Assembly (NCBI RefSeq): GCF_020696975.1 | Contig: NZ_JAJGBK010000014.1 | Location: forward strand, 62,001-126,000 | Direction: 5' to 3' | Length of the DNA stretch: 64,000 bases | Source of the DNA: Methanoculleus sp. | GTDB taxonomy: Archaea > Halobacteriota > Methanomicrobia > Methanomicrobiales > Methanoculleaceae | Shown: positions 5,728 to 11,231 of the stretch, in pieces | How the letters are laid out: each line of letters begins with the position of its first letter | Position numbering within the stretch: position 1 is the stretch's first letter | Program-made: the position numbers and the translations under genes | Notes under the pieces: generated by a model | What the model was told of the DNA's origin: nothing | Database searches by the model: none | The model's input: only the letters and a program-made list of their open reading frames with translations

Positions 5728-8346
5728 ATGAGCGACGGACCGACCCCGGCAATGCGGCAGTATTACTCAGTGAAGGCCCGGTACCCCGATGCCGTCCTCT
5801 TCTTCCGGATGGGGGACTTTTATGAGACGTTCGGGGAAGACGCCGGCGTGGTAGCCCGGGAACTCGACATAACCCTGACGGCCCGGGGCAGGGACAGGAA
5901 CGGCGACCGGATGCCGCTCGCGGGCGTCCCGCACCACGCCGCCGACGGCTACATCGCCCGCCTGGTGGGCAAGGGCTACAAGGTGGTGATCTGCGACCAG
6001 GTGGAGGACCCGAAGACCGCGAAAGGCGTCGTGAAACGGGAGGTCACGCGGGTGATCACCCCGGGAACCCTGATCGACTCCTCGATGCTCGGCTCGGCCG
6101 GGGCCCACTACCTGATGGCGGTCGCTCCCGACCAAAAAGAGACCTTCGGGCTCGCGTTCCTGGACGTCTCGACAGGGGAGTTCTTCGTCTCCTCCGGGAG
6201 CGGCGAGCGCGACTACGCCGATATCGTCTCGGAGGCGGTCAGGTACCGCCCAACAGAGGCGATCGTCCCGGAGAGCCTCAGCGGGGCGCTCCCCGGCCGG
6301 CTCGAGACCCTCGGGATGACAGTGAGCCGCTATCATGACGATGCCTTCGATACCGACGCGGCCTGCGAGCGCCTCTGCGAGCAGTTCGGGACGGCGACGC
6401 TCGACGGCTACGGGTGCGCAGAGATGCCGGGAGCAGTCGCAGCGGCCGGTGCGGCGCTCCGGTACGCCCAGGAGACCCAGCAGTCAGCCCTCCCCCACAT
6501 AACGGGGCTTTCGACCCGGGTTCCGTCGGGGACGATGGTGCTTGACGCGATCACGCTGCGGAACCTCGAGATCACGACGGGCATCCGCGGCGTTGGCGAC
6601 GGGAGCACCCTGCTTGCCGCGCTCGACGTCACGGAGACATCGATGGGGAGCCGGACGATGCGGTCGTTCCTGATCAGCCCCCTGGTCAGGAAGGACGCCA
6701 TTGAGAATCGGCTCGACGCCGTGGCGTGGTTCCTCGACCGCACCCTGGAACGGCAGGCGCTTCGCGCGAGCCTCGGCGACTTTGCCGATATCGAGCGGAT
6801 CGCGGGAAGGATCGCCTACGGGAACGCCGGGCCGCGGGATCTCGCGACACTCCGCGAGTCGCTGGAATCCATCCCGGACGTTAAAGCGCTCTTCTCCGGC
6901 GATCTCCCCGCCCTCGTCCGCGAGGCCCTCGACGCGATGGACGACCATCCCCGGGTCACGGACCTCGTCGGCAGGGCGATCGTGGACGAGCCCCCGGCGC
7001 TCGCAAAGTCCGGCGGGATGATCCGGGAGGGGTTCAACGAGAAACTCGACGAGCTCCGGCACCTCGCGACGACCGGGAAGGACTGGATCGCGGAGTTCCA
7101 GCAGCAGGAGCGGGAGAGGACCGGGATTAAGTCACTCAAGATCGGCTACAACCGGGTCTTTGGGTACTACATCGAGGTGACGAGACCGAACCTCTCCCTG
7201 GTGCCGCCGGAGTACGAGCGCCGGCAGACGACCGCGAACGGCGAGCGCTACACGATCCCCGACCTCCGGGAGAAGGAGGCGATGATCGCGACCGCCGAAG
7301 AACGCCTCGGGGCGCTTGAAGCGGAGATCTACGCCGAACTCGTCCGGACGCTCGCGGCGGAGGTCACCGGGCTCCAGGCGACCGCCCGGGCGGTGGGGCT
7401 GCTCGACGTCTACTCAGCCCTCGCGGAGGTCGCCGCCCGCTACGGCTACACCCGCCCCGTGATCGAGGAGAGCGGCCGGGTGGTCATCCGGGACGGCCGC
7501 CACCCGGTGGTGGAGCGGCACCTCCCGGTCCCGTTCGTCCCGAACGATACGGACCTTGACTCCACCGGCGACCAGATCATGATCATCACCGGGGCGAACA
7601 TGGCGGGCAAGTCCACCTACATGCGGGCGGTGGCGCTCTGCTGCATCATGGCGCAGATGGGAAGTTTCGTCCCGGCCCGCCACGCCACCGTCGGGATCGT
7701 CGACCGGGTCTTCACCCGGGTGGGGGCGTTTGACGACCTTGCCTCGGGGCAGTCGACGTTCATGGTCGAGATGCTCGAACTTGCAAACATCTTGAACAAC
7801 GCCACCGCAGCAAGCCTCGTCATCCTCGACGAGATCGGGCGCGGGACGAGCACGCTGGACGGGTGCGCCATCGCCCGGGCGGTGGTGGAGTTCCTGCACG
7901 GGAAGGCCTCCGCCGGTCCCCGGACCCTCTTTGCGACCCACTTTCATGACCTGATCGACCTTGAGGGGGCCCAGAAGCGGGTGAAGAACTTCCATTTCGC
8001 CGTGAGGGATACGGGGGAGGACGTCGTCTTCCTCCGTAAGATCATCCCCGGCGCGACCGACAGGAGTTACGGCGTCCACGTGGCGCACCTTGCCGGGGTC
8101 CCGAAGAAGGTGACCGACCGGGCGATGGAACTCTTAAAAGAGGCGTCGGCGCGGGAGATCCCGGCCGGCCCGCGGGCTCCCCGCTACACCCAGATGCTCC
8201 TCGTCGATCCCGGCGAGGGGGCCGTCCAGGAGAACCCCGCGGTCAGGGAGCTCAAAGACCTTAACCCGGACGAAATGACCCCGATCGAGGCGTTGAACAC
8301 CCTCTGCCGTCTCCGGAAGATGGCAAACGGGGGGAGGAGCGGATAA
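5728..8346 (+). CDS. mutS: DNA mismatch repair protein MutS
   Basis: An 872-residue full-length MutS1. The N-terminal mismatch-recognition domain has the Phe-x-Glu wedge (F31-Y32-E33 in RMGDFYETFG). The connector, lever and clamp regions follow, then the ATPase domain with the Walker A motif TGANMAGKST, Walker B LVILDEIGRGTST and the dimer histidine region FATHFHDLIDL. It starts 4 bp or so after an AAGGAG site and its stop overlaps the mutL ATG by one base, so the two are translationally coupled. MutS1 is scattered in archaea and usually interpreted as acquired from bacteria. Confidence 0.96.
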   Translation: MSDGPTPAMRQYYSVKARYPDAVLFFRMGDFYETFGEDAGVVARELDITLTARGRDRNGDRMPLAGVPHHAADGYIARLVGKGYKVVICDQVEDPKTAKGVVKREVTRVITPGTLIDSSMLGSAGAHYLMAVAPDQKETFGLAFLDVSTGEFFVSSGSGERDYADIVSEAVRYRPTEAIVPESLSGALPGRLETLGMTVSRYHDDAFDTDAACERLCEQFGTATLDGYGCAEMPGAVAAAGAALRYAQETQQSALPHITGLSTRVPSGTMVLDAITLRNLEITTGIRGVGDGSTLLAALDVTETSMGSRTMRSFLISPLVRKDAIENRLDAVAWFLDRTLERQALRASLGDFADIERIAGRIAYGNAGPRDLATLRESLESIPDVKALFSGDLPALVREALDAMDDHPRVTDLVGRAIVDEPPALAKSGGMIREGFNEKLDELRHLATTGKDWIAEFQQQERERTGIKSLKIGYNRVFGYYIEVTRPNLSLVPPEYERRQTTANGERYTIPDLREKEAMIATAEERLGALEAEIYAELVRTLAAEVTGLQATARAVGLLDVYSALAEVAARYGYTRPVIEESGRVVIRDGRHPVVERHLPVPFVPNDTDLDSTGDQIMIITGANMAGKSTYMRAVALCCIMAQMGSFVPARHATVGIVDRVFTRVGAFDDLASGQSTFMVEMLELANILNNATAASLVILDEIGRGTSTLDGCAIARAVVEFLHGKASAGPRTLFATHFHDLIDLEGAQKRVKNFHFAVRDTGEDVVFLRKIIPGATDRSYGVHVAHLAGVPKKVTDRAMELLKEASAREIPAGPRAPRYTQMLLVDPGEGAVQENPAVRELKDLNPDEMTPIEALNTLCRLRKMANGGRSG

Positions 8347-10100
8347 TGACGAAGATCCGGGTCCTCGACCCCGATACCGTGAACCAGATCGCCGCCGGCG
8401 AGGTCGTCGAGCGGCCGGCATCGGTGGCAAAAGAACTCCTTGAGAACGCCATCGATGCGGGTGCGACGAGCATCCTCGTCGACGTCACATCGGACATGGC
8501 CGCCGTCACGAAGATCCGGGTGACCGACGACGGCGAGGGGATGACGCCGGAGGAGGCGGTCCTCGCGTTTTCCCCCCACGCGACGAGCAAGATCCGGGAT
8601 ATCGCCGATCTCTCGGCCATCCATACCCTCGGGTTCCGGGGGGAGGCGCTCGCGAGCATCGCCGCCGTCGCGGAGGTGACGATGATCACCCGTCCGCGGG
8701 GCGCCGGGGCGCTCGCCGGGACCCGTGTGGTGGTCAGGGGCGGCGAGGTCGTGGAGAAGAGCGAGGTCGGTGCGCCGGAGGGGACGACGATCGTCGTGGA
8801 GCGTCTCTTCTACAACACCCCCGCCCGCCGGAAGTTCCTCAAAAGCAGGAACACCGAACTCGCCCACATCTACGCCGTTGTGGAGAACCTGGCCCTCGCG
8901 CACCGCGAGATTGCCTTTCGGGTGGTGCACAACGGCAAAGAGCGGATGGCGACCCAGCGGTCCGGGGAGGTTCTTGCCACCATCGCCGGGCTCTACGGCG
9001 CGGACCTTGCCCGGGCGCTCGTCCCGGTCGAGGGAAGGCTCCCGTTCATCCGCATAAGCGGTTACGTCTCCCGACCGTCGGAGAGCCGGGGGAACCCCTC
9101 GCAGGTCTTCGTGAGCATCAACGGCAGAAGCATCTCCTCCCGCCGGATCGCCGCCGCCGTCCGGGAGGGCTACGGCACCCTCCTCCCGAAGGACCGCTAC
9201 CCGGTGGCGTTCATCGATCTTACGATCGAGACCGATCTTGTGGACGTCAACGTCCACCCGACAAAGAGGGAGGTCCGTCTCTCCCGGGAGCGGGAGATCA
9301 CGGGGGCGATCGCGGCCGCCGTCGAGGAGGCCCTTGCCGGGCACGACCTCCTCGGTGACGGGGCGGCGGAACCGGTCCAGCAGCCGCTCGTGCCCTCAGA
9401 GCCCGCCCGGAATCCAGCCCCGGCGGCCGCCGAGCCCGAGGCGGCCTACGCGGTCGGGCACCGCGGTCTTGCCCGCTCTGATCGGCAACTCCGCCGGACG
9501 GAGACGGAGGGGCAGGAGAACCTCCTCCCCCCGATGGAGCCGATCGGGCAGGTTGCCGCGACCTACATCGTGGCGGAGGGGACCGACGGCACCCTCTACC
9601 TCGTCGACCAGCACGCGGCCCACGAACGGGTCCTCTACGACCAGGTCGCGGAGCAGCGCGATAAGGCGGCCGGGTCGCAGGAGTTGATCATGCCCGTCGT
9701 CCTCTCTCTCCCCCCGAAGGAGTCCGCCGCGCTCAGAGACGCCGTGCCCCTCCTCGCGGACGAAGGGTTCCTGGTGGAGGAGTTCGGCCGGGACACCTTC
9801 GCCGTCCGGGCGGTGCCGGTCGCTCTCGGCGCCGTCGAGGACCCCGGGAGAGTCCGGGAGACGATCGATGAGGTCCTCGCCGGGGAGGCCCGCACCGCTC
9901 CCGACCGGCGTGAGGCGGTCACCTGCATCGTCGCGTGCCGGGGTGCGGTGAAGGCCGGCGCCCTCCTCACCCCCGACCAGCAAAAGCGCCTCCTCATGCA
10001 ACTCGCCCGGACGAAGACACCCTGGACATGCCCGCACGGGAGGCCGACGGTCGTGGCGTTCGATAAACGGAAACTCGACGGGCTCTTTCGGCGGGGGTAG
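8346..10100 (+). CDS. mutL: DNA mismatch repair protein MutL
   Basis: A 584-residue GHKL-ATPase. Motifs are ENAIDAGATS (motif I), DDGEGM (motif II), GFRGEALASIA (motif III) and FYNTPARRKFLK. A proline/alanine-rich linker (about residues 335-385) leads to the C-terminal dimerisation domain. That domain has DQHAAHERVLYD starting at D421, which matches the MutL endonuclease motif DQHA-x2-E-x4-E except that the last Glu is Asp (D432), and also the accessory CPHGRP near the C-terminus. This supports a nicking MutL as in most bacteria lacking MutH. It is coupled to mutS. Confidence 0.95.
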   Translation: MTKIRVLDPDTVNQIAAGEVVERPASVAKELLENAIDAGATSILVDVTSDMAAVTKIRVTDDGEGMTPEEAVLAFSPHATSKIRDIADLSAIHTLGFRGEALASIAAVAEVTMITRPRGAGALAGTRVVVRGGEVVEKSEVGAPEGTTIVVERLFYNTPARRKFLKSRNTELAHIYAVVENLALAHREIAFRVVHNGKERMATQRSGEVLATIAGLYGADLARALVPVEGRLPFIRISGYVSRPSESRGNPSQVFVSINGRSISSRRIAAAVREGYGTLLPKDRYPVAFIDLTIETDLVDVNVHPTKREVRLSREREITGAIAAAVEEALAGHDLLGDGAAEPVQQPLVPSEPARNPAPAAAEPEAAYAVGHRGLARSDRQLRRTETEGQENLLPPMEPIGQVAATYIVAEGTDGTLYLVDQHAAHERVLYDQVAEQRDKAAGSQELIMPVVLSLPPKESAALRDAVPLLADEGFLVEEFGRDTFAVRAVPVALGAVEDPGRVRETIDEVLAGEARTAPDRREAVTCIVACRGAVKAGALLTPDQQKRLLMQLARTKTPWTCPHGRPTVVAFDKRKLDGLFRRG

Positions 10101-10257
10101 AAAGACCACCCTCCCCGGGGGACCCTTATCGCGCCCAAAAATCCCCATTTCTGGAATACCCGGAAAACCTGAGGAGATATCGGTCAAATCCCGTATCACA
10201 ATGGATTTATTCTTCGGGGATTAGAATGGCTATATGTCACAGGGGGGACTCCTCGCA
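10101..10257. other. Intergenic DNA after mutL with promoter-like sequence
   Basis: No gene is supported. The stretch holds AT islands at 10201-10212 (ATGGATTTATTC) and 10229-10238 (GCTATATGTC), either of which could act as a TATA element for the structured RNA candidate immediately downstream. A short open frame from 10234 lacks any protein-like features. Confidence 0.4.
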
Positions 10258-10506
10258 GACGAAAGGAATGAACCGCGTGACACTCCAGCAGATCCGCCTC
10301 TGACGAAGACTCAGTGCAGAGGGGGACTGTATCACGACCGTGCGAACGACCCGGTCATCGAACCCTGCTTCGATCTCTCTCCCGAAGCGATCCTCCCCGC
10401 GGGCACCCCGGGATCCCGCCGGGGGAGGTCAGGTGACGGGGCATCCGGGAAACGCCCTACCTGATGGATACCTCTCAACAATCTATGTTACCCCGTCACC
10501 TTTTTT
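10258..10506 (+). ncRNA. Candidate structured non-coding RNA
   Basis: There is no credible open reading frame, yet the DNA is rich in inverted repeats. The arms CCTCCCC (about 10392-10398) and GGGGGAGG (about 10421-10428) enclose a GC-rich stem. A perfect 10-bp pair, GGTGACGGGG (10432-10441) and CCCCGTCACC (10491-10500), is followed directly by six Ts (10501-10506), as in a terminator. TGTCAC (10235-10240) pairs with GTGACA further on (about 10277-10282). TATA-like sequence lies at 10229-10238. The next gene is convergent, so this is not a leader for it. The exact 5' end and the RNA class are unknown. Confidence 0.4.
10491..10506 (+). terminator. Terminator-like stem arm and oligo-T
   Basis: The 3' arm CCCCGTCACC of a perfect 10-bp inverted repeat is followed immediately by TTTTTT, the arrangement of an intrinsic terminator on the plus strand. 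It closes the candidate RNA described over 10258-10506. Confidence 0.5.
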
Positions 10507-10631: not shown

Positions 10632-11231
10632 TTAGAGGAACCGGAACGACTCCGCCGCCGGGGCCGCATCAACGTTGTAGACGTCGTACTCAGCGGGGAA
10701 TACCGTGTGCATGACCGAATACAGCGTATCATCCCTGATGGCATAGCGGATGACGAAGGTGTACCGGTCGTCCTCGACGATGGGGACGGAGAAGGTTGAC
10801 TCGTACCCCGGGACGCCGTCAAGGGAGATCCTCTCTGTGGATACCCATTCGGCCCCTATATCGGCTTTGAGATCCTCTGCATAGGTCGTGTTCAGGGCCA
10901 GCAGGATCTCGTCGTCGGAGGAGTTCTTGCTCGCGAGCGGGATTGCGTTCACCCGGACCTCCTCGTGCTTCACCGGCGAGGAGAACCATACGCTCTCCCC
11001 GGACTCGGTGTAGAACCATCCCTCCGGGCAGGTGAGGGCATAGCCGTAGGTGGTATTGGTGTAGGTGCCGTTCCCCGGGACGGGTGCCGGGGTCGAGGTC
11101 GGGACCGGAGCGGGCTCACCCTCTCCCGGGCCGGGCGGCTGCGGTGCGGAGAGTCCCGGCAGCAGTACTGCGAGGACGGCAAGCACGGCGACCACGAGAA
11201 CCCCGGTGATCAGCAGATGTCTTGAATTCAT
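10632..11231 (-). CDS. Membrane-anchored PsbP-like exported protein
   Basis: A 199-residue protein with an uncleaved signal anchor (residues 6-27, LLITGVLVVAVLAVLAVLL). A Pro/Ser/Thr-rich linker (about 28-54, with repeated PAPVP and TSTPAP) leads to an outer domain. The outer domain starts NTTYGYALTCPEGWFY and ends ESFRFL, which resembles the PsbP/DUF1795-like fold found in many exported methanogen proteins. It carries several N-x-S/T sites for N-glycosylation. A TATA-like GTATTTATG lies on the minus strand at about 11259-11267. The function is unknown; extracytoplasmic. Confidence 0.65.
   Translation of the reverse strand: MNSRHLLITGVLVVAVLAVLAVLLPGLSAPQPPGPGEGEPAPVPTSTPAPVPGNGTYTNTTYGYALTCPEGWFYTESGESVWFSSPVKHEEVRVNAIPLASKNSSDDEILLALNTTYAEDLKADIGAEWVSTERISLDGVPGYESTFSVPIVEDDRYTFVIRYAIRDDTLYSVMHTVFPAEYDVYNVDAAPAAESFRFL

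Follow-up and report, generated by a model that had tools for sequence, protein, structure and literature searches.

The 531-bp gap between mutL (8346-10100) and the next, convergent gene (10632-11231, minus strand) of a Methanoculleus genome raises the question of whether it holds a gene of its own and, if so, whether that gene works as an RNA, as the message for a protein, or as both. A preliminary description of the window (the whole 64-kb stretch of DNA analysed here) had given the gap as about 530 bp, in keeping with the 531 bp found between 10100 and 10632, and had taken a stand-alone structured RNA at 10230-10506 as its simplest reading. It had also held that the RNA could not be a riboswitch of the downstream gene, which is right, since that gene is convergent. 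The product of that gene is PsbP-like, an unexpected name for a methanogen protein, and its match to the family (PF01789) is barely over the cut-off (24.2 vs. 23.5 bits).

The unit and its ends

Searched by DNA, 29 of the 35 Methanoculleus genomes contain the block, which starts near 10186 and ends sharply at the T-tract; the conserved unit is accordingly the interval 10186-10506. With a covariance model of the leader the number rises to 30 of 35, always as a single copy, so that the conservation in related genomes for which the preliminary description had proposed a search is indeed present. The element lies directly 3′ of mutL in every copy examined, followed in most by the PsbP-like gene. 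The five remaining genomes fall into three sets: the element is truly absent downstream of mutL in two, the contig stops at mutL or within it in two more, and the search for the end of mutL was unsuccessful in the fifth. In two genomes the PsbP-like gene is absent along with the element. The covariance-model search gave no credible copy outside Methanoculleus; its lone match there (G104, from another family) lies antisense inside a histidine-kinase gene and is put down to chance. On these comparative grounds the interval is a genuine gene under selection, restricted to Methanoculleus methanogens, and the genus gains a gene of its own that had not been described before.

Near the 5′-end lies a promoter-like box, GTATCACAATGGATTTAT (10193-10210, plus strand), whose TTTAT core (10206-10210) is about 25-28 nt 5′ of the leader stem. 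Its mean identity among copies is 0.93-0.96, against 0.50-0.59 in the adjoining spacer, and the genome has no other copy with fewer than 3 mismatches. We infer that the box acts as a promoter. A sigma-70 style promoter and terminator scan was uninformative, the model not being archaeal. That the unit is conserved, with a promoter-like box and a 3′ U-tract of its own, supports this part of the preliminary reading. As for its proposed extent, the end at the T-tract stands, and the start has to be moved upstream of 10230, since the box already occupies 10193-10210.

At the 3′-end, the perfect 10-bp inverted repeat reported earlier, GGTGACGGGG (10432-10441) and CCCCGTCACC (10491-10500), is present with six Ts directly after it (10501-10506), and grows to a perfect 11 bp (AGGTGACGGGG, 10431-10441, and CCCCGTCACCT, 10491-10501). 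A perfect 10-bp repeat with a loop of at most 60 turned up in 119 of 3000 dinucleotide shuffles and one with a T-tract in just 1 of 3000; the repeat at 10431-10506 is the sole site of the latter kind across the 64 kb. The fold of the terminator segment has a z of -2.18 relative to shuffles, and that of the whole segment is mildly better than shuffles (z -1.85). The 5′ arm (10431-10441, plus strand) also holds the ancestral stop codon of the small ORF described below. The 3′ arm with its U6 (10491-10506, plus strand), where the conserved block ends, resembles an intrinsic terminator. The perfect stem is peculiar to the window; in relatives it usually has one or two mismatches. The terminal stem is missing from several copies; a U-rich tract is found in nearly all, including some that lack the stem. 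Archaeal termination is mainly U-tract dependent, and the retention of the tract where the stem is lost fits this dependence.

In the 5′ arm of the terminal stem, AGGTGACGGG is identical across the 13 aligned copies, and a conserved non-coding motif, AAACG(C/U)CCU(A/G)CC (10450-10461, plus strand), lies 3′ of the ancestral stop in almost all 30 copies. An anti-Shine-Dalgarno-like AUCACCUC was also considered in the 3′ domain and set aside, as it becomes AUUGUCUC in three copies. In the segment 10431-10501, AGGUGA has two possible partners, CACCU in the terminator arm and (U)CACCU between the arms, an attenuator-like layout; pairing of the anti-Shine-Dalgarno-like sequence with AGGUGA in the same RNA may be an alternative to the terminator stem.

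That no known RNA motif had been recognised here agrees with the Rfam scan. At curated thresholds it found no family in the interval, the window yielding just two tRNAs elsewhere, and under relaxed cut-offs all matches were eukaryotic and attributable to chance (best 16.8 bits vs. a threshold of 48). A literature search returned no report on Methanoculleus small RNAs.

A small protein and a probable structured leader

The middle of the unit in 16 genomes is an ORF of 51-65 aa that starts with GTG or TTG and has the protein core TLLQQIRLWM-TR--GKQYHD-END--IE-YFDISPEATL. Its identity at codon positions 1, 2, and 3 is 0.843, 0.923, and 0.734 (mutL: 0.883, 0.921, and 0.738), and the median dN/dS is 0.16. 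Judged by this pattern of substitution, the small protein is under purifying selection in the ORF-bearing relatives. In two sister-genus genomes an ortholog that begins with ATG and lacks the RNA flanks stands right after mutL; hence, the ORF is ancestral. In the MutL tree, of which several inner branches are weakly supported, the copies without the ORF are nested within ORF-bearing species, so that loss of the ORF is the derived state. The exception is L019 (from G016): it has no ORF, yet its MutL groups with an ORF-bearing species, and its leader matches that of L044, a conflict that may reflect a mixed metagenome bin or transfer. A stand-alone RNA is thus no longer the simplest reading, given that most relatives code for protein here, that the ORF is ancestral and that the window copy is broken. 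Among the findings that the preliminary description had said would count against its RNA was a clear protein-coding match, and the small ORF of the relatives supplies that part.

Searches of Pfam, NCBIfam, and PDB with the small protein gave no match, and in the wider order only weak relatives were seen. One of them is HQIKLWMKIHETCTKYRE (L115, in G206 from another family; E 0.0015), near a nucleotidyltransferase-like gene. A seventeenth copy, L042 (G046), has an intact-looking frame with dN/dS of about 0.14 and no GTG, TTG, or ATG at the usual start; its 3′ hairpin differs from those of other copies.

The leader preceding the ORF has two candidate stems. The inner pairs of P1 (GUCAC, 10236-10240, with GUGAC, 10277-10281, plus strand) form in 17-18 of the 18 copies; one of its pairs is A-U in 11 copies and G-C in seven. 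Its 3′ strand overlaps the remnant GTG start codon of the small ORF (10277-10279), a site that is GTG or TTG in all 16 intact ORFs. P2 (10241-10260, plus strand) is CAGCGGG/CCCGCUG in relatives and weakened in the window copy; 92% of its cells are paired and two of its pairs have changed on both sides. Taken together, P1 and P2 have 89% of cells paired (24-66% in slid controls) and three pairs changed on both sides (at most one in the controls), and they are the only part of the unit with such compensatory changes. The main two-sided change in P1 (seven cells) is probably a single event on a single branch. A rival fold, in which an extension of P2 replaces P1, has 91% pairing and less two-sided change. 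A tree-aware scan of all pairs for covariation found nothing significant, the best pair (E 0.83) not being complementary. Relative to shuffles, the leader fold has a mean z of -3.2 in the ORF-less group and -0.5 in the ORF group; its z is unremarkable in the window copy as in the ORF-bearing group.

Copies that have lost the ORF

Ten copies, nine of them distinct, no longer have the frame or the start codon, whose place is taken by ACG in most; no ORF on either strand is common to them all. The box, the leader hairpin, and the 3′ terminator domain of this group are kept at 86-96% identity, and the AAACG(C/U)CCU(A/G)CC motif is 0.96 conserved. The identity is 0.855 in the leader (0.7% gaps) and 0.860 in the 3′ domain, both above that of mutL fourfold sites (0.789), whereas the middle has fallen to 0.719 with 13% gaps; the spacers are at 0.59 and 0.56. 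As the leader and 3′ domain exceed the fourfold identity where there is no ORF, selection on the flanks does not require the protein. From this comparison we hold that the flanks are under selection independently of coding in the ORF-less group.

The same figures bear on the most serious alternative, that the gene is purely one for a small protein, its ends being ordinary UTRs and the window and ORF-less copies recent pseudogenes with flanks that have not yet decayed. Coding selection is clear, covariation is not significant, and in L025, the sister lineage of the window copy, the leader is eroding as well (identity 0.605); these observations speak for this account. Uniform decay, however, does not fit a group in which the ends alone are spared, above the mutL fourfold identity, and the middle is divergent and carries numerous indels; we therefore consider a gene for the protein alone unlikely, though well worth keeping in mind.

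The window copy itself is a broken remnant (10277-10436, plus strand) of the ORF of about 50 aa found in relatives. Compared with the 16 intact orthologs, a 3-nt and a 1-nt deletion near the start bring in a TGA at 10301-10303, and a second 1-nt deletion lies near 10411; the ancestral stop is the TGA at 10434-10436. A 76-aa ORF from the ATG at 10234 was dismissed, since neither that ATG nor its frame is conserved and the fusion is a product of the frameshift. Errors in an assembly of 33 contigs could in principle produce such frameshifts in a species that still makes the protein, and the rest of the ORF is still protein-like, with a fit to the protein model at residues 12-47 only. But there are three separate deletions (3, 1, and 1 nt), amino acids have changed at otherwise invariant sites, pN is doubled (0.186 vs. 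0.096) with dN/dS at about 0.5, and L025 also lacks most of the ORF, all of which makes assembly error improbable. The leader and box of the window copy still match the level of conservation of ORF-bearing copies fairly closely, at an identity of 0.83 for the leader (0.87-0.90 in ORF-bearing copies) and 0.95 for the box. That the unit is a structured RNA that codes in no lineage, the ORF pattern being incidental, would suit the flanks conserved without an ORF and the strong leader hairpin of the ORF-less group, and is very hard to credit in view of the codon-position pattern, the low dN/dS and the sister-genus ortholog, with its ATG start and no RNA flanks.

A small mRNA that may outlive its ORF

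We prefer the view, at a probability of roughly 0.6, that the unit is a gene for a small mRNA or dual-function RNA that has become RNA-only in some lineages. The interval 10193-10506 would be transcribed as a single unit of about 270 nt, 3′ of mutL and independently of it. Its ancestral state would be a small mRNA with the promoter-like box and a structured leader, the GTG or TTG start codon lying within P1, followed by an ORF of 51-65 codons and by a 3′ domain with a U-tract terminator at its end. The window genome and the derived species group have lost the ORF, with the leader and 3′ domain still selected; since these outlast the ORF under selection, the transcript itself most likely acts. 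That the unit is transcribed, that P1 sequesters the start codon, that transcription stops at the U-tract, and that the RNA regulates are all deduced from sequence. The further proposal, that an archaeal mRNA for a small protein has become a stand-alone regulatory RNA at its own locus, and on at least two occasions, losing its frame while selection held on to the leader hairpin and the 3′ domain, is more tentative, and we would not yet bet on it. Such a transition from mRNA to non-coding RNA is seldom visible at species-level resolution, and the species with the ORF, next to those that lack it, form a natural series for studying it in Archaea.

Structured leaders can hide a start codon, as in translational control hairpins. 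The GTG or TTG start within P1 would be of this kind, but P1, unlike such leaders, is kept even where the start codon is ACG. The unit shares hairpins and a terminator-like end with families in Rfam, none of which reaches its gathering score in the interval. In layout, the predicted transcript is also like the dual-function sRNAs of Methanosarcina mazei, a precedent for such RNAs, among them sRNA154 with its sORF of 20 aa: these too are short methanogen transcripts, restricted to a genus, that combine an RNA part with a conserved small ORF (PMC11456600). The Methanoculleus ORF differs in being larger and in having been lost in some lineages while its flanks persist.
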